Assembly: GCF_018622995.1 (NCBI RefSeq)
Contig: NZ_CP076022.1
Coordinates: 1,922,001-1,986,000 of the forward strand
Origin: Arthrobacter jiangjiafuii
Lineage (GTDB): Bacteria; Actinomycetota; Actinomycetes; Actinomycetales; Micrococcaceae
Direction: 5' to 3'
DNA length: 64,000 nt
This document shows positions 29,006-37,110 of the stretch, piece by piece. A model generated the notes under the pieces. That model was not told the origin of the DNA. It searched no databases and saw nothing but the letters and a program-made list of their open reading frames with translations. Each line of letters opens with the position of its first letter. The stretch's first letter is position 1. The position numbers were made by a program, and so were the translations under genes.

Positions 29006-29217
29006 GAATTGGAAGGGGTAGAACGCAGTTTCGGGAGAATCCATAAGATCCGGGGAGTACCGCCCACGTGACCTGCGGGTATGCGGCGAGTCCCGATCCG
29101 CGTAAATGCAGGGGACAGAACGCGTGCACCTTACCCGTGCGCTCCCCTCCCCGCCCCTCCTAGCCTGATTTCCATTGGCCAGGAGTCGGAGGGAGTCCTG
29201 GAAACAAGGGAGCCAAT

Positions 29218-31821
29218 TTGACGTACCACTCGCCAGGCCGCGGAAACCGGATCTCCCGGACGGCAGGACAGAACCGCCAGTCGCAGGGAACCGGCACCCG
29301 CTCACCGGCGTTGCTGGCCGGTCTCGTGCTGGTCCTGGTGCTGGGCCTGTTCAGCGCCGTCAATCCCGGCAATGCCGCCGACAGGCCCGAAGCCGTCAAC
29401 CTGGTTCAGAATCCGGGGCTGGAGGAAGGCGCCGACCTCCCCCACTGCTTCTCACGCTCCGGCTGGGGCTCGAAAGGAGCCTGGGCTGTGGCGGCAGGGC
29501 GCGGCGGCGGACGGGCCGCATCGGTCAGCATCGCGGAGTATGTCAGCGGTGACCGAAAGCTGCTGCAGACCGAAAGCCCCGACTGCGCTCCGGCCGTGAC
29601 CGCGGGCACCGGCTACGAGATGGAAATCTGGTACCAGTCGGACGTCCCGGTGACCCTGACGGCCTTTGTGCACGGGACCTCAGGGTGGAGCTACTGGGGT
29701 GATCTGCAGACCTTCCCTGCTTCCAGCGGCTGGTCAGCCGCCAGGAAACAAACCCCGGTGGTACCTCCCGGCACCACCATGATGTCCTTTGGGCTCGCAC
29801 TGGCGGGCAGCGGCACCCTGACCACCGACGACTACTCCCTCCGGGCCGCCGCCCCGCCCCAGGAGACCGGACCCCCCGGGCCGGCCGGAGTCCTCAATCC
29901 GAACCTCTCCGCCGGATCCGGACCGCTTCCGGAGTGCTTCGTCTCCGCAGGCTGGGGGGAGAACACCGTGTCCGGTTCCCTGACAGACGACGTCCCCGCC
30001 GGGTCCGCGCCAGGCACCCGCGCATTCGAACTGGTGATGTCCAACCACATCTCGGGGGATGCCAAACTCATTCCATCCGAAGCCCCGGGGTGCGCCCCTT
30101 CCGTCACTGGAAACGGGCCCTGGGACCTCAGTATTGATTATCTCTCCACCACCGCTTCTGCCTCCTTCACCGTTTTTGTGCACACCCCGGCCGGTTGGCA
30201 GTACTGGACGGACCTGGCTGTCCTGCCGGCTGCACCCGGCTGGACGACGGCAAAGGCCCGCCTCGAGAAGGTTCCGGCAGGAACCGACCGGGTCTCCTTC
30301 GGCATCGCCCTCTTCGGAACGGGCACCCTCAAGACCACCAACTACGCCCTGCTGCCCGCTCCCCCGGACCCCCTTCCTGAACCAGTGGACCCGGGACAGC
30401 CGGAGCTCACCGGTTCCTGGGAGGTACTGGAATCCGAGCTCCCCATCAGGGCCGTCCACACCACACTGCTGCATGACGGCCGGCTGCTGCTCATCGCAGG
30501 ATCGGGCAATGACGGCAACCTCTTTGCCGCCGGGGAATTCCGCGCCGTCCTGTGGGACGCCGCCACCGGAGAATTCACCGAGGTGCCGGTCCCGTATGAC
30601 ATGTTCTGCGCCGGGCATGTCACGCTGCCCGACGGGAAGGTCCTGCTGGCCGGAGGAACTCAGGAGTACCCCGGCGCCCAGGACGGCCCCACCACCTTTG
30701 AAGGATCAAAGCAGAGCTACTACTTCGATCCGGCCGACGATTCCTTTCACCGCCTCCCGGACATGGCCGGCGCCCACTGGTATCCCAGCCTGACCAAGCT
30801 CGGCAGCGGCGATGTCTGGTCCGCCGGCGGACTTAACGAAAAAGCGGAGGGGACAGTCCTCACCGAAATGTTCGACTACTCGTCCATGAGCTGGCTGCCA
30901 CAGGCAGCAGTTCCGCAGACGTGGAGCTTCTGGGGCACCTATCCGCACATGTTCCTGCTCGACGACGGCACCATGTTCTACACCGGGGGCCACACCTTCG
31001 GCAGCGGACTGCCGGGGACGGGAGCCTCCATCTACAACTGGCAGACCGCCCGGATGTGGGACGTTCCCGGCCTGCGGCAAAAGGACCTCCGGGACCAGGC
31101 TGGATCCGTGTTCATAGGACCTGTCCAGGACCAGCGGCTGATGATCGTCGGCGGCGGCAATACCGAGACGAACGAACCCGCCATCAGCCTGGTGGATATC
31201 GTCGACCTGAACTCCCCGACACCCTCCTACTCCCCCGGCCCTGACCTCCCCGGCCCCGGGAAGGCCTACGTCAATCTGGTCAACCTTCCGGACCGGACCG
31301 TCCTCGCATCCAATGGGGCCCGCCACAACCGGGCGTCCGACGTGCTCACGGCCGCCCTCTACGATCCGGCAGACAACCAGTGGCAGAGTGTGCCGGCTGA
31401 TCCGGTCGCGAGGAATTACCACTCAACCGCCATCCTCCTTCCGGACGGCCGCGTCGCGGTCCTGGGGTCAAACCCACTGGATAATTCCTTTGAATTCCGG
31501 ATCTCCGTCTACAGCCCGCCCTACATGGCGGCTGACCGGCCCCGGATCCTTGAGGCACCAAAGCGCGCCGGCTACGGCGAGAGCTTCACCGTGCAGGTGG
31601 ACGGCGAAGCCACTGCCGCCTCGCTGATGTCCCCCATGTCCGCCACGCACCAGACCGACACAAACGCCCGCCTGATCGATCTGCCGATCTCGGGAACCGG
31701 GAACACCTACACGGTGCAGGTTCCAGAGAACCGAAACCTGGTTCCCCCCGGGCCGTACATGTTCACCGTGCTCGACGGCGCCGGAGTCCCCAGCACAGCC
31801 CGATGGGTGTGGATCTCGTGA
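29218..31821 (+). CDS. GlxA-like copper-radical oxidase (AA5), secreted or membrane-anchored
   Basis: 867 aa. TM/signal segment at residues ~29-49, then two homologous ~150-residue modules (each with FVH..GW.YW.DL and a G.GTL.T.. end), then a seven-bladed kelch domain and C-terminal DUF1929 domain. The galactose-oxidase ligand set is present by motif: Cys464 (YDMFCAGHVTLPDG) and Tyr522 (AHWYPSL) for the Cys-Tyr cofactor, Tyr734-His735 (RNYHST) and His811 (ATHQTD) for copper. Streptomyces GlxA is the best-known relative and modifies a glycan made by CslA. TTG 29218 is used because AAGGGAG precedes it. First gene of a four-gene operon. Confidence 0.88.
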   Translation: MTYHSPGRGNRISRTAGQNRQSQGTGTRSPALLAGLVLVLVLGLFSAVNPGNAADRPEAVNLVQNPGLEEGADLPHCFSRSGWGSKGAWAVAAGRGGGRAASVSIAEYVSGDRKLLQTESPDCAPAVTAGTGYEMEIWYQSDVPVTLTAFVHGTSGWSYWGDLQTFPASSGWSAARKQTPVVPPGTTMMSFGLALAGSGTLTTDDYSLRAAAPPQETGPPGPAGVLNPNLSAGSGPLPECFVSAGWGENTVSGSLTDDVPAGSAPGTRAFELVMSNHISGDAKLIPSEAPGCAPSVTGNGPWDLSIDYLSTTASASFTVFVHTPAGWQYWTDLAVLPAAPGWTTAKARLEKVPAGTDRVSFGIALFGTGTLKTTNYALLPAPPDPLPEPVDPGQPELTGSWEVLESELPIRAVHTTLLHDGRLLLIAGSGNDGNLFAAGEFRAVLWDAATGEFTEVPVPYDMFCAGHVTLPDGKVLLAGGTQEYPGAQDGPTTFEGSKQSYYFDPADDSFHRLPDMAGAHWYPSLTKLGSGDVWSAGGLNEKAEGTVLTEMFDYSSMSWLPQAAVPQTWSFWGTYPHMFLLDDGTMFYTGGHTFGSGLPGTGASIYNWQTARMWDVPGLRQKDLRDQAGSVFIGPVQDQRLMIVGGGNTETNEPAISLVDIVDLNSPTPSYSPGPDLPGPGKAYVNLVNLPDRTVLASNGARHNRASDVLTAALYDPADNQWQSVPADPVARNYHSTAILLPDGRVAVLGSNPLDNSFEFRISVYSPPYMAADRPRILEAPKRAGYGESFTVQVDGEATAASLMSPMSATHQTDTNARLIDLPISGTGNTYTVQVPENRNLVPPGPYMFTVLDGAGVPSTARWVWIS

Positions 31822-32507
31822 GGGACCAACAACGGCATGCTGTGATCGCTGCCCTGCTGGCACTAACGATCCTGCTGGCGGTATCAACCCTTTGGGGCGG
31901 CGCTGCCGCAGAACCCGCAGGAGGCCGGGACAGTGGCGGCGCCGCGAAAAGCTCCGATCATGCCCACCCGGGGCCGGCGGCCCCTGGTTCTGATGCCGGC
32001 ACTGCGGCTGTGTCCGCAGCCCCAGCCTCCTCGCCGGAGGAAGCGCCCCACGGCATCGTCTCCGGGATAGGGCAGGGGGAATCGGCAGGTGCTCCGGGGA
32101 GAACCCGCCACCTGCACCTTGCCGAGGCGGCAGGGCAGCAACCGGCGCACGGGGTTCCGCGCGGAAAGCTGGGTCCTGCCGGGGCTGACCGGACGGCAGG
32201 GCTGTCCGAACGGGGTGCTTCGCCCGCCCGGGGCGACCCGGGAAGCGGTACGGCACCCAACACGGGCGGCTGCCTTCCGGAGTACGGAGCCGCCGGGCAG
32301 TGCCTTCCCGTGGTTCCGCCCAGCCTGGCGAGCCATCTTGCGCAGATGAAAGCAGCCGGATTAGACCCCTCGTCCATGCCCCATCACTGGTCATGCGCGG
32401 AGGTCCGCAACTACTTCCCCGACGGCCTGCCCGTGCGGATTCCGGGAACCGACCCGCAACACCTCGATGCCACCGCCGACGGCATTGCCTGCGGAACAGG
32501 CGACTGA
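31818..32507 (+). CDS. secreted protein with C-terminal Excalibur-type domain
   Basis: 229 aa. One N-terminal hydrophobic helix (residues ~10-32), a long Ala/Gly/Pro/Ser-rich low-complexity region, then a C-terminal domain CAEVRNYFPDGLPVRIPGTD...LDATADGIACG that resembles the Excalibur calcium-binding motif (Cys-bounded, Asp-rich loop). GTG 31818 overlaps the oxidase stop by 4 bp (GTGA), so expression is coupled. Role in the glycan pathway is unknown; a wall-associated accessory is plausible. Confidence 0.75.
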   Translation: MRDQQRHAVIAALLALTILLAVSTLWGGAAAEPAGGRDSGGAAKSSDHAHPGPAAPGSDAGTAAVSAAPASSPEEAPHGIVSGIGQGESAGAPGRTRHLHLAEAAGQQPAHGVPRGKLGPAGADRTAGLSERGASPARGDPGSGTAPNTGGCLPEYGAAGQCLPVVPPSLASHLAQMKAAGLDPSSMPHHWSCAEVRNYFPDGLPVRIPGTDPQHLDATADGIACGTGD

Positions 32508-32608
32508 CCCCCGCCACCCCCTTTCATGCCCACCGCCGGCGGACCGCACCGCACCGGCCGATGCCACGCACCTTCGCCCTTCCTTTGCACCCAGACCAGG
32601 AGCCCAGC

Positions 32609-33892
32609 ATGCTCACCTTCATCCTCTCGATCCTCATCGTGCTTATTTCCCTTGCCCTCTTTGGCATCGCCGCCTCAACCCTGCGGCTGAACACCTACGC
32701 CTGGTGGGATCCCAAGACCCAGCAGCGGACCTTTTACGGCGCCCTGCACCCGGCCGAAACCCTGTCCTTTTCGCTGATCATGCCGTGCCGGGACGAACAG
32801 GAACCGGTCATGCAGGCCACGCTCGAAGCGCTGCTTGCGCAGTCTCACCGCCGGAAGGAAATCATCATCTCGGTGGGCCACGATGACGCCGCCACCGTAG
32901 CGATTGCCGAAAAGCTCGCAGCCGAATACCCGGACAGCGTGCGGGTGAGCATCGACTCCGGAGCGACCAAGAACAAACCGCTGCAGCTGAATACGGCGCT
33001 GTCGATGTGCAGCAACGAGATTGTGGGAGTTTTCGACGCCGAGTCCATCGCGGCACCGGGGCTGCTCCGCAATATCGACAGCTGCTTTGTGACCCGGAAT
33101 GCGGATGTGGTCCAGGGCGCGGTGCAGCTCGTGAACTTCCGCGATACCTGGTATTCGCTGCGCAACTGCCTGGAGTACTTCACATGGTTCCGGTCCCGCC
33201 TGCATGCGCAGGCAGACCGGGGGTTCATTCCCCTCGGCGGGAACACCGTCTTCGTCCGGCGGGACCTGCTGGAGGAGGTGGGCGGCTGGGACCCGAGCTG
33301 CCTGGCGGAGGACTGCGACCTCGGCGTCCGGCTCTCCACCCTCGGCCACGAAATCGTCGTCGCCTATTCCGCCGATCTGGTGACCCGGGAGGAAACACCG
33401 GACTCACTGCGCAACCTCATCCGGCAGCGCACGCGGTGGTCGCTGGGCTTTATGCAGGTCCTCGCCAAAGGCGACTGGAAAAACCTGCCCACCCGGCGCC
33501 GCCGCCTCCTGGGCTGGTGGACCCTGATGCAACAGCACTTCATGGCCTTTGCCGGCTTGGTGATTCCGCTGGCCATCGCGGCCGCCATCTGGGGCAATTT
33601 CCCGCTGGTGGTGACCCTGGCAGCCTTTGCACCGCTGATTCCCACGCTGGCCACCATAGCCTTCGACGCCTGCATGCTGCATGAGTTCGGCCGGGACCAC
33701 AAATACCGGATTACCGCGTACGACTATTTCCGGCTCGTCGCAGGCACACCGTTTTACCAAATGGTGCTCGCCATCGCAGCCCTCCGCGCGCTGGGCAAGT
33801 TTTGGCTCGGCGACTTCCGCTGGGAAAAGACAGCGCATTCCGGAGCCCATCTCGCATCGGTCCAGGCGACCCACCGGTTGGTGGAGGCATGA
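32609..33892 (+). CDS. processive family-2 glycosyltransferase, CslA-like
   Basis: 427 aa. One N-terminal TM, GT-A domain, then three or so C-terminal TM helices. Catalytic signatures of cellulose/hyaluronan/chitin synthases are all present: SLIMPCRDE, substrate Asp143 in FDAES, the catalytic-base region EDCD (234-237) and product-binding QRTRW (273-277). It would polymerise and extrude a beta-linked glycan at the membrane. No PilZ domain is seen. ATG 32609 has AGGAG 6 nt upstream. Its stop overlaps the next start as ATGA. Paired with a GlxA-like oxidase as in streptomycetes. Confidence 0.88.
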   Translation: MLTFILSILIVLISLALFGIAASTLRLNTYAWWDPKTQQRTFYGALHPAETLSFSLIMPCRDEQEPVMQATLEALLAQSHRRKEIIISVGHDDAATVAIAEKLAAEYPDSVRVSIDSGATKNKPLQLNTALSMCSNEIVGVFDAESIAAPGLLRNIDSCFVTRNADVVQGAVQLVNFRDTWYSLRNCLEYFTWFRSRLHAQADRGFIPLGGNTVFVRRDLLEEVGGWDPSCLAEDCDLGVRLSTLGHEIVVAYSADLVTREETPDSLRNLIRQRTRWSLGFMQVLAKGDWKNLPTRRRRLLGWWTLMQQHFMAFAGLVIPLAIAAAIWGNFPLVVTLAAFAPLIPTLATIAFDACMLHEFGRDHKYRITAYDYFRLVAGTPFYQMVLAIAALRALGKFWLGDFRWEKTAHSGAHLASVQATHRLVEA

Positions 33893-35493
33893 GCACCGTC
33901 ACCACCCCTGCAACAGCGCATGAAGAGCAGGTTCGGCGCATTCCCACGCTGCCGCCGGCCCGGCGCAAGGCATTGCGCCGCGAAATAAGGCTGGACCGTT
34001 ACGCGCTGGCCGCCCTGGGTGTCCTGGCCACCGTCCTGAGCCTATGGAACCTGAATGGTTCCCCGTCCTATTCCGAGGACGGCGGGACGTATACCGCCCA
34101 GGCATTCAGCGTGCTGGAAGGCAGCCTGGCACCCTATACCTACTGGTACGACCATCCGCCTCTGGGATGGATCCAACTCGGCGCCCTGGCCTGGATCCCC
34201 TACAATCTCGGTTTCGGCGACGGAACCTTCATTGGTGCAACCCGGTATGTCATCACGGTGTATTTTGTGGCGACGGCGCTGCTGGTGTTCCTGCTTGCCC
34301 GACGGTTCCGGGTCCGCCGGCCCCTGGCTGCCCTGGCCGTCGTCATCCTGGTCCTGTCTCCCCTGTCGCTAACCCTGGGCCGCCAGGTCCACCTCGACAA
34401 CATCGGCGCTCCGTGGCTGCTCCTGGCGTTCTATCTGGCCCTTTCGCCGAGGAAGGCCCTGTGGCACCACGTTGCCGCCGGAGCATTTTTCGCCATCGCG
34501 GTGCTGTCCAAGGAAACCCTTGCCATCTTCGGTCCGGCGCTGCTGGTGGCCATGCTCAACCGGCGGTCCTGGTCCAACCGGAGCTTCTCCGTTGCCGGCT
34601 TCCTCGTCGTGGGCGGACTGATCCTGAGTTTCTACCCGCTGATGGCACTGCTGCGGGGCGAACTGACGGCCGGACCTGACCACGTGTCGCTGCAGGAGGC
34701 GCTGGAATACCAGTTCTTCGCGCGGTCCGGTTCCGGCTACATCTGGGAAGCAGGCTCTGACCGGGCCGAGCTCCTCAACGGCTGGCTGTACTTCGACCGC
34801 TACATCATCGCGGCCGGGTGCGTGGCAGCGGTGGTGTGCCTGTTCCGGCGCCGGACGCTCTGGGTGGCGGTGGCCATCCTCTCCTTCGCTATCCCGGTGT
34901 TCATCGGCCAGGGCTATCTGCCGGCTATGTACATCGTAGGGGTCCTGCCCTATCTAGTCCTGGCCCTGGGCGGCGCGCTCAATATGCTCTGGGACCAGGT
35001 TGAAAAGTCTGCCGCGGCAGGACCGCCGGGCCTGAAACCGGTGGTCCGCGCAACAGCCGCTGCCGTGATTGCCTCCGGCGTTGCGCTCATGTCCGTACCC
35101 CAGTGGTTTGAGCAGGACCGCACCCTGCTGACGAGCCAAGCCAACGACGAGTGGCGCAGCACCTTGACCTGGGTCCAGGAGAACGTGCCGCGCCAGGACA
35201 CGGTGCTGACCCCGTACTCCATGTGGCAGGACCTGAATTCCGCCGGCTGGGATGACCCGTGGACGATGATCGTCACGGAAAAGGCTGACCTGGACAGCCG
35301 GTTTGCGGTCGAACACCCCGAAGGCTGGCAGGCCATCGACTGGATCATCGTCGGGCCGATCGTGCGGTCGAACGTCGAAATCCTCGGCCTCACTACCGTC
35401 GGGCAGGCTTTGGAGAACGCCGAACCCGTGGCCGGTTTCGGCGAATGGAGCGTGTACAGGGTCCAGGACGTGCCGGCAGCGGCTGGAACCTGA
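33889..35493 (+). CDS. GT39/PMT-like membrane glycosyltransferase
   Basis: 534 aa with about 11 TM helices. First extracytoplasmic loop has SYSEDGGTYTAQAFSVLEG (acidic catalytic motif) and YWYDHPPLGWIQLG, characteristic of PMT/ArnT-type GT-C enzymes that use polyprenyl-phosphate sugars. An extracytoplasmic C-terminal domain ends in FGEWSVYRV. Overlaps the CslA-like gene by 4 bp, so it probably decorates or anchors the same polymer or mannosylates a partner protein; this is inference. Ends 18 bp from the convergent ABC-F gene. Confidence 0.82.
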   Translation: MSTVTTPATAHEEQVRRIPTLPPARRKALRREIRLDRYALAALGVLATVLSLWNLNGSPSYSEDGGTYTAQAFSVLEGSLAPYTYWYDHPPLGWIQLGALAWIPYNLGFGDGTFIGATRYVITVYFVATALLVFLLARRFRVRRPLAALAVVILVLSPLSLTLGRQVHLDNIGAPWLLLAFYLALSPRKALWHHVAAGAFFAIAVLSKETLAIFGPALLVAMLNRRSWSNRSFSVAGFLVVGGLILSFYPLMALLRGELTAGPDHVSLQEALEYQFFARSGSGYIWEAGSDRAELLNGWLYFDRYIIAAGCVAAVVCLFRRRTLWVAVAILSFAIPVFIGQGYLPAMYIVGVLPYLVLALGGALNMLWDQVEKSAAAGPPGLKPVVRATAAAVIASGVALMSVPQWFEQDRTLLTSQANDEWRSTLTWVQENVPRQDTVLTPYSMWQDLNSAGWDDPWTMIVTEKADLDSRFAVEHPEGWQAIDWIIVGPIVRSNVEILGLTTVGQALENAEPVAGFGEWSVYRVQDVPAAAGT

Positions 35494-35511
35494 GTCCGGC
35501 CGCCCCGGGCT

Positions 35512-37110
35512 CTAGGCCAGTGTCACCAGATCGAGGTAGTCCTCGTTCCAGTGGTCCTCGTCGCCGTCCGGCAGGAGGACCACGCGCTCCGGGTTCAGCG
35601 CCGCCACTGCTCCCTCATCGTGGCTCACCATGACCACTGCCCCGGAGTAGCTGCTCAGGGCACCCAGGATCTCCGCGCGGGAGGCGGGGTCAAGGTTGTT
35701 GGTGGGCTCATCCAGGAGCAGGACGTTGGCCGATGACGCCACAATGGTCGCCAGGGCCAGGCGGGTCTTCTCTCCACCGGAGAGCACCCCCGCCTTCTTC
35801 TCGACGTCGTCGCCGCTGAACATGAACGAACCCAGGACGCTGCGGACCTCGGCATCATCCATGTCCGGTGCGGACGAGCGCATGTTCTCCAGGACGGTGC
35901 GCTCGGTGTCGAGCGTTTCATGCTCCTGGGCGTAGTAGCCGACCTTCAGCCCGTGGCCCGGGATGATCCGTCCGGTGTCCGGCTTGTCCACGCCGGCCAG
36001 CATGCGCAGGAGGGTGGTCTTTCCGGCACCGTTCAGGCCCAGGATGACCACCTTGGAACCGCGGTCGATGGCCAGGTCCACGTCGGTGAAGATCTCCAGC
36101 GAGCCGTAGCTCTTGCTGAGGCCTTCGGCCATCATGGGGGTCTTGCCGCAGGGCGCCGGATCCGGGAAGCGCAGGGCTGCAACGCGGTCGCTGGCACGCA
36201 CGGCGTCCAGGCCGCCCATGAGCCGGTCCACGCGCTTGAGCATGCTCTGCGCGGCGGAGGCGCCGGAGGCGCGGGCCTTCATCTTGTTGGCCTGGGCCAG
36301 CAGGATGCCGGCCTTCTTCTCGGTGTTGGCGCGCTCACGCTTGCGGGCACGCTCATCGGTCTCGCGCTGGATCTTGTAGCGCTTCCAGTCCATGTTGTAG
36401 ATGTCGATCGTGGCGCGGTTCGCGTCAAGGGAGAAGACCTTGTTGACCGTGGCTTCGAGCAGCTCGGTGTCGTGGCTGATCACGATCAGGCCGCCGGTGT
36501 GGTTCTTCAGGAACTCACGCAGCCAGGCGATCGAGTCGGCGTCAAGGTGGTTGGTGGGCTCATCGAGGAGCATGGTCTGGGCATCCGAGTACAGGATCCG
36601 GGCCAGCTCCACGCGGCGGCGCTGGCCACCGGAGAGGGTGCTCAGGGGCTGGTTCAGCAGGCGGTCCGGCAGAGCCAGGTTCGCGGTGATGGTTGCGGCT
36701 TCGGATTCCGCGGCGTACCCGCCGGCGGACAGGAATTCTGCCTCCAGGCGGTCGTAGCGGTTCATGGCCTTCTGCGAGATCTTCGGGTCCTCGCTGGCCA
36801 TTTCGTCCTGGCACTTCTTCAGCTCGGCGGAGACCTTGTCCAGGCCGCGGGCAGAGAGGATCCGGTCCCGCCCCAGCTGCTCCATGTCCGGCGTCCGGGG
36901 ATCCTGCGGGAGGTAGCCGATTTCGCCGACACGCTTCACGTGCCCGCTGGCCGGCAGGGCTTCTCCGGCCAGGACCTTGGTCAGAGTGGTTTTGCCCGCG
37001 CCGTTGCGACCCACCAATCCAATCTTGTCGCCTTTGTCTACACGGAATGAGACCGCTTCCATGAGCAAACGTGCGCCGGCACGGAGCTCGAGATTAGATA
37101 CGGAAATCAC
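35512..37110 (-). CDS. ABC-F family ATPase
   Basis: 532 aa, two ABC domains on one chain without TM segments. Domain 1: GLVGRNGAGKTTLTKVLAG, LSGGQRRRVELARIL, MLLDEPTNHLDADS. Domain 2: VILGLNGAGKTTLLRMLAG, LSGGEKTRLALATIV, LLLDEPTNNLDPAS. The basic helical linker (KRYKIQRETDERARKRERA) is the P-site tRNA interaction motif. ABC-F proteins act on the ribosome as translation factors or confer antibiotic protection; this one has no drug-specific features. GTG 37110 with AAAGG upstream. Confidence 0.93.
   Translation of the reverse strand: MISVSNLELRAGARLLMEAVSFRVDKGDKIGLVGRNGAGKTTLTKVLAGEALPASGHVKRVGEIGYLPQDPRTPDMEQLGRDRILSARGLDKVSAELKKCQDEMASEDPKISQKAMNRYDRLEAEFLSAGGYAAESEAATITANLALPDRLLNQPLSTLSGGQRRRVELARILYSDAQTMLLDEPTNHLDADSIAWLREFLKNHTGGLIVISHDTELLEATVNKVFSLDANRATIDIYNMDWKRYKIQRETDERARKRERANTEKKAGILLAQANKMKARASGASAAQSMLKRVDRLMGGLDAVRASDRVAALRFPDPAPCGKTPMMAEGLSKSYGSLEIFTDVDLAIDRGSKVVILGLNGAGKTTLLRMLAGVDKPDTGRIIPGHGLKVGYYAQEHETLDTERTVLENMRSSAPDMDDAEVRSVLGSFMFSGDDVEKKAGVLSGGEKTRLALATIVASSANVLLLDEPTNNLDPASRAEILGALSSYSGAVVMVSHDEGAVAALNPERVVLLPDGDEDHWNEDYLDLVTLA

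Follow-up and report, generated by a model that had tools for sequence, protein, structure and literature searches.

A four-gene unit in Arthrobacter jiangjiafuii

Within a 64,000-nucleotide stretch of Arthrobacter jiangjiafuii contig NZ_CP076022.1 (positions 1,922,001 to 1,986,000; hereafter the window), four genes lie on the same strand as one unit: a copper-radical oxidase (OX), a protein with an Excalibur-like domain (EXC), a family 2 glycosyltransferase (GT2) and a GT39-like enzyme (Table 1). A preliminary description, made from the letters of the window, had listed an oxidase, an Excalibur-type protein, a GT2 and a PMT-like enzyme, and all four are confirmed at the coordinates in Table 1. 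It had also counted three of four junctions as tight or overlapping; four genes have three junctions, of which two are 4-base overlaps, between the EXC start and the OX stop (GTGA) and between the GT39 start and the GT2 stop (ATGA), while EXC and GT2 are separated by a gap of 101 bases. The unit is real, as the same order is kept in at least 10 other loci and the presence of its genes matches across 120 sampled genomes of the family (Micrococcaceae).

Table 1. Features of the OX-EXC-GT2-GT39 unit (positions in the window)
Feature	Position	Strand	Basis or detail
OX, copper-radical oxidase of a clade near GlxA	29218..31821	+	TTG start, 867 aa
OX hydrophobic segment, aa 30-48, putative signal peptide or anchor	29305..29361	+	hydropathy scan
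OX, two putative carbohydrate-binding module (CBM)-like beta-sandwich modules, aa about 60-214 and 221-383	29395..30366	+	internal repeat, relatives, AlphaFold2, Foldseek
OX catalytic part: kelch propeller and E-set, lacking GlxA domain 2	30403..31818	+	Pfam, alignments, GlxA-model match
OX Cys464, Cys of the expected Tyr-Cys cofactor	30607..30609	+	alignments including GlxA
EXC: N-terminal hydrophobic segment, low-complexity linker, 4-Cys Excalibur-like domain	31818..32507	+	GTG start, 229 aa
4-Cys Excalibur-like domain of EXC	32247..32504	+	family alignment; AlphaFold2 pLDDT 85
GT2, predicted membrane processive-type glycosyltransferase	32609..33892	+	427 aa; FDAES, AEDCD, QRTRW
GT39-like GT-C enzyme (PMT_2)	33889..35493	+	534 aa
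Gly65 of GT39 in place of the conserved Glu of the DDEGTY motif	34081..34083	+	alignment
Segment (putative cassette insertion) with no match in genus relatives retaining both flanks	about 29012..35513	.	comparison with relatives' loci

The oxidase

OX matches the Pfam GO-like_E_set family over its cut-off (6e-24), and its Cys464, Trp521-Tyr522, Tyr734-His735 and His811 align to the radical-site residues of Streptomyces GlxA, such that the copper-radical set is complete. In an alignment of nine sequences, the Cys, the two Tyr and the two His never vary (9/9), and the Trp does. The full galactose-oxidase ligand set proposed in the preliminary description is therefore upheld: OX carries the residues of an AA5 copper-radical oxidase (Cys-Tyr cofactor, second Tyr and two His), and its copper content and activity are predicted.

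The N-terminal modules, modeled by AlphaFold2 with a pLDDT of 90, are probably CBM-like beta-sandwiches. Foldseek matches include a CBM22 tandem (E 8e-12) and CBM4-2 (TMt about 0.70) within a mixed list of 284 matches at E<=0.001, which contains both sugar-binding and other beta-sandwich proteins and in which tandem matches have a TM of about 0.35.

When compared to GlxA (NCBIfam NF052501), OX scores 416.4 bits against a curated cut-off of 800, and it matches the model only at 53-141 and 260-644, with domain 2 (aa 143-260) absent and identities to a GlxA of 35% and 47% in the two matching parts. Among 18 genomes searched, the GlxA cut-off is passed only in S. acidiscabies, where that GlxA is separate from the OX of the window kind. 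In a quick tree of 73 rows, from which L050 and L058 were left out as too short (loci are numbered with the prefix L), the EXC-associated oxidases form one 32-row clade with an SH-aLRT support of 100, and the GlxA group (L141, L143 and L108) stands apart from it with a support of 99. The branching among the OX clade, the GlxA group and a third small group is not fixed by this tree. At L020 (7517-13326), an OX of 1098 aa and a lipoprotein-type EXC (by eye) precede a gene that matches GH18 below threshold.

The Excalibur-like partner

The whole EXC protein has no Pfam match at E<=1, and its C-terminal 86 aa match Excalibur (PF05901) at E=0.045 (14.6 bits), below the 22-bit cut-off. Across the EXC family, 22 of 27 members match Excalibur at E<=1, the best at 2.3e-5. 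The window member, an Excalibur-domain secreted protein in the preliminary description, itself falls short of the Pfam threshold. Invariant throughout the family (27/27) are C, YG, C, P, C, D, LD and AC. Relative to the Excalibur loop DxDxDGxxCE, the Cys pair and the first Asp are invariant, the third position is Thr in the window and Asn, Asp or Thr elsewhere, the fifth is Asp or Asn, and the final Glu ligand is replaced by Gly in the window and is not conserved. Because two ligand positions vary and the final Glu is not conserved, Ca2+ binding by EXC is uncertain.

The tie between EXC and OX is close. A possible start codon of EXC overlaps the OX stop by four bases in 14 of 15 loci (the exception being L040), and in five loci of named Streptomyces (L045, L047, L051, L052 and L058) the EXC domain lies in the same open reading frame (ORF) as OX, a fusion that the preliminary description could not have seen; the profile search for fused EXC covered the loci already collected. 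In a sample of 396 Actinomycetota genomes, with up to 14 candidates scored per listed genome and the rate hence a lower bound, EXC occurs in at least 6, namely the window's own and five others, all of one genus. In these five (L183-L187), which may overlap with the named Streptomyces genomes, EXC and OX again share one ORF. A hydropathy scan places a hydrophobic segment at the EXC N-terminus, with a lipobox-like sequence seen by eye in L020 and L043. Because EXC combines this segment with an Excalibur-like loop and is fused to OX elsewhere, we infer that it is a dedicated partner of OX, most likely its tether.

In L023, EXC is on another contig. In Acrocarpospora catenulata (L046, 10458-12196), EXC follows OX at about 1.3 kb, with a TnpB-like gene on the other strand in between (by eye). 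An Actinocorallia locus (L057, 5597-15071) has a tandem array of four OX genes but just one EXC, and neither GT2 nor GT39 is in the locus.

The glycosyltransferases

GT2 matches Pfam Glyco_tranf_2_3 over the cut-off (6e-45) and contains all of the signatures noted before (FDAES, EDCD and QRTRW). QRTRW is kept in 17 of 17 aligned sequences, the DxD motif reads DAE, and there are three hydrophobic segments. From its Asp, DxD-like, ED and QxxRW motifs and its membrane segments, GT2 is of the processive type, with its activity predicted. Its identity to the GT2 of Streptomyces locus L047 is 51%, and to a CslA about 23%. PgaC/IcaA, the top NCBIfam hit, reaches 67.9 bits against a cut-off of 422, and the score against the CelA family is 37.9 bits (cut-off 699.1). 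The FxVTxK gating loop is absent from the sequence as read by eye.

The last enzyme matches PMT_2 (8e-11; PF13231, 42.8 bits against a cut-off of 26.1) and also PMT, just over its cut-off, in agreement with its earlier labeling as PMT-like. GT-C enzymes typically have an acidic DE motif in the first loop. The corresponding DDEGTY motif reads SEDGGTY in the window GT39, with the Asp kept and the Glu replaced by Gly, and the Glu is kept in 23 of 24 aligned relatives; the remaining one (L030) is misaligned at this position, and the Glu is present in its ORF by eye.

In relatives, the unit is commonly accompanied by genes for a predicted lipid-phosphate donor. Of 10 loci compared, 9 have DPMS-GtrA or GtrA genes next to the cassette or close by, and the tenth, the window, has none; GtrA-only genes match both queries and carry the label DPMS-GtrA in our comparison. 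In L033-L037 and L042, the gene after GT39 encodes DPMS and GtrA domains (checked by Pfam in L035 and L037, by eye in the others), in L019 and L050 the gene at this place encodes GtrA alone, and L038 has a GtrA gene on the opposite strand at a distance of about 3 kb. All seven Streptomyces, Acrocarpospora and Frankia genomes searched have 44-50% matches to the DPMS-GtrA gene, which in the three Acrocarpospora cover the DPMS part only. The remaining matches of this search include generic DPMS-like genes at 32-38%, and one genome (G040) has none. The window's own genome has one DPMS-like match at 33% and two GtrA genes, none of them beside the cassette. Because the motif Glu is lost and no donor gene lies beside it, the GT39 arm of the window cassette may be decaying.

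Distribution and gene order

In an even draw of 120 genomes from the family, with up to 48 candidates scored per listed genome and the EXC rate again a lower bound, EXC occurs in 5 genomes (6 places). OX of the window kind (catalytic identity >=54%) is found in the same five, also in six places; at E<=1e-20 the OX search returns 11 genomes, and the matches of the other six are weaker ones, catalytic or to the N-terminal modules. GT2 (E<=1e-60) and GT39 (E<=1e-20) occur in the same seven genomes, which include the five with OX-EXC. One of the five (G087, 390 contigs) has OX and EXC on different short contigs, and in two Galactobacter genomes the cassette genes are split by contig ends.

A contig scan, in which 582 of 593 stretches were confirmed and the best 80 retained, gave 79 loci. 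A conserved four-gene order had been named in the preliminary description as a check, and OX-EXC-GT2-GT39 is indeed found in at least 10 loci besides the window (L019, L033-L038, L041, L042 and L050), with the contig of L041 ending within GT39. Neither outcome that the preliminary description had named as refuting, misaligned copper ligands or a lack of co-occurrence in related genomes, was seen. Linkage extends to loci of Streptomyces, Acrocarpospora and Frankia, in other gene orders. Over 10 loci, and with kinship not controlled, gene distances correlate for GT2-GT39 (r 0.97), OX-GT2 (0.86) and OX-GT39 (0.83), and correlations with EXC are lower (0.47-0.56, equaled or exceeded in up to 31 of 2000 shuffles). 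GT2-GT39 pairs also occur without OX (L026, 5803-12215; L030, 7873-14207; L031, 5654-12156), and downstream of them lie genes for DUF4397, GH8 and sortase, identified by Pfam in L026 and by eye in the two other loci. Among the titles and abstract openings that our searches of open-access literature gave, none concerned this cassette or an Excalibur-oxidase pairing.

Several loci depart from this layout. At L050 (7711-10412), from Arthrobacter nitrophenolicus, OX is split over two frames, as a draft error or a broken gene. Arthrobacter sp. RIT-PI-e has a second OX-EXC unit (L142, 894-9962) in which the layout is kept and the enzymes differ: downstream come another GT2 (QQYRW), a PMT_2 enzyme and the GH26 and PIG-L genes, and GtrA lies upstream. 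In L044, GT2, DPMS, GT39 and OX lie on a contig filed as Saccharibacteria, the binning of which may be wrong.

Probable lateral acquisition of the cassette

Within the window's genus, OX is found in 1 of 29 genomes (E<=1e-60), and the downstream ABC-F gene is present in all 29. The segment of the window that is unmatched in relatives (Table 1) corresponds to the four genes. We compared 11 relatives' loci: in four (L160-L163), the upstream ATPase-like gene adjoins ABC-F with about 320-710 bases in between; in five (L165-L167, L169 and L170), the gene before the ATPase-like one (SURF1-like, by eye) is close to ABC-F; in L168, the SURF1-like gene is about 1.2 kb from ABC-F; and L164 has no upstream match. 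These adjoining flanks in cassette-free relatives could not be seen from the window alone. The cassette shows no signature of transfer in its GC content (66.0%, versus 66.4% for the window), and therefore the case for transfer rests on distribution and empty sites. On these grounds, lateral acquisition, presumably into the window's lineage, is favored, with loss in 28 relatives being less simple.

Proposed function and alternatives

The explanation that we consider probable is that the cassette was laterally acquired and makes and oxidizes a surface glycan. In this scheme, GT2 would polymerize and export the glycan backbone, and GT39 would add a sugar on the outside from a lipid-phosphate donor, which in relatives would be made and flipped by DPMS-GtrA. 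OX would then bind the glycan through its CBM-like modules and oxidize a primary alcohol to an aldehyde at the Cu/Tyr-Cys radical site, releasing H2O2, while EXC would hold OX in place through a membrane anchor, a linker and a domain stabilized by disulfides and perhaps by Ca2+. Polymerization by GT2, use of a lipid-phosphate sugar by GT39 and production of aldehyde and H2O2 by OX are predicted from what is known of their families, and the type of glycan, the alcohol attacked and the order of the steps are likewise proposals.

Several observations weigh against this scheme. With GT39 lacking the motif Glu and the genome lacking a close DPMS-GtrA match, decoration may not happen in the window's organism. 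The EXC loop is without the final Glu ligand, and a Foldseek search with the EXC fold gave no matches at E<=10. Within the OX clade, an EXC of its own is missing for L044, for one Frankia copy and for three of the four Actinocorallia copies. One Kocuria genome (L032) has OX-EXC with no GT39 anywhere in the genome and no GT2 in the locus, and in A. ruber OX-EXC and GT2-GT39 are on different contigs. Finally, our searches of open-access literature yielded no biochemistry for the OX clade.

The Kocuria, A. ruber and Actinocorallia cases, together with the GT2-GT39 pairs that stand without OX beside GH8 and sortase genes, would also fit a secreted oxidase that works independently, attacking external polysaccharides or producing H2O2, with GT2-GT39 merely traveling along. 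We consider this unlikely, as all five OX-EXC genomes among the 120 also hold GT2 and GT39, and the linkage recurs in Streptomyces, Acrocarpospora and Frankia. A role for EXC as a copper-loading or cofactor-maturation factor for OX appears somewhat less likely still. GlxA maturation needs Sco and DtpA (PMC4736821), and at least one close His pair is found in 15 of 25 EXC linkers or flanks; however, the other 10 lack such a pair, just 3 of the 15 do better than shuffled sequences at 0.05, and the pairs of L048 and L049 are upstream of where EXC probably starts. Fusion into one chain also fits a stoichiometric subunit better.

The PMT_2 match, the PMT match just over cut-off and the Ala/Pro/Ser/Thr-rich EXC linkers (by eye) could instead suggest that GT39 O-mannosylates protein, with OX or the EXC linker as its target. 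This is improbable: GT39 tracks GT2 (the same 7 of 120 genomes) rather than OX-EXC (5), and it pairs with GT2 where OX is absent. A canonical cslA-glxA cellulose synthase locus, to which the GlxA identities of OX and the QxxRW motif of GT2 might point, is very improbable and was rejected on the basis of the missed GlxA cut-off, the missing domain 2 and the low CslA identity of a GT2 without FxVTxK; in addition, S. acidiscabies has both a GlxA that passes the cut-off and, at another place, an OX of the window kind. For the same reasons, the preliminary label of GlxA/CslA-like does not hold in the sense of membership. What stands of its distinct system for glycan assembly and oxidative modification is a distinct conserved cassette outside filamentous groups.

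Making and oxidizing a surface glycan thus remains the reading that we prefer. It is conceivable, at somewhat less than even confidence, that the cassette represents a second type of oxidative glycan assembly in actinobacteria, akin to GlxA-CslA, in which an AA5 oxidase would require a dedicated Ca2+-dependent, 4-Cys Excalibur-like subunit, fused or translationally coupled, and a GT2/GT-C/DPMS-GtrA module would make a branched glycan, with the side chain serving as the oxidase substrate.

Comparison with known systems

Like the GlxA-CslA system of Streptomyces (AA5 oxidase and GT2), the cassette combines the copper-radical residues, including the Trp beside Tyr, and an N-terminal hydrophobic segment on the oxidase with a neighboring membrane GT2. 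It differs in that OX lacks domain 2 and has CBM-like modules and EXC, in that the window GT2 is of another type, and in the presence of a GT-C enzyme, with DPMS-GtrA in relatives. Domain 2 lies within the region of GlxA (12-261, but not 12-54) that was pulled down with CslA (PMC11022532). GlxA orthologues are described as mainly from Streptomyces, with three in Frankia, and the cslA-glxA-endoglucanase linkage as exclusive to Streptomyces (PMC3543389); sco genes occur beside such clusters in Frankia (PMC4736821). Because its oxidase travels with a small Cys-rich domain, which some Streptomyces have fused to the enzyme, we regard the system as a relative, not a copy, of the GlxA system. The in vivo substrate of GlxA is not settled, and its redox function is called presumed (PMC11022532). 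A related system outside filamentous groups, with linked genes pointing to backbone, side-chain donor and oxidation, would make the GlxA-type question testable.

EXC shares with the Excalibur domain of CbpL (PF05901; PDB 5J8T) the Cys pair and the Asp-rich D-x-x-x-D-G-x-x-C loop, and has a weak profile match to 5J8T (E 0.043). It differs in having two extra invariant Cys in an N-terminal extension and no final Glu ligand, and in being tied to an oxidase. The CbpL domain folds upon Ca2+ binding and has a Cys-Cys bridge, and the function of Excalibur domains is called unknown (PMC5137146); the cassette ties one to a specific enzyme.

Cellulose-type operons combine synthase and glucanase genes, as in bcsA-bcsB-bcsZ and cslA-glxA-cslZ (PMC11022532). 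The related GT2-GT39 pair of L026 is likewise followed by GH8, but with DUF4397 and sortase genes instead of BcsB, and the window cassette has no glycoside hydrolase. A further parallel is presumably found in lipid-linked decoration by GtrA/GtrB/GT-C systems: DPMS and GtrA domains are encoded beside the GT-C enzyme in relatives, but the enzyme is joined here to a processive-type GT2 and an oxidase, and no donor gene lies beside the window cassette.

A related module elsewhere in the genome

A CE4 polysaccharide deacetylase in the window's own genome (L016, 403-2049; genome position 3580237), assigned to CE4 by Pfam in this locus only, has a C-terminal module resembling those of OX. A same-glycan link through this common module was set aside as suggestive only, with proteins carrying the module also present in cassette-free genomes.

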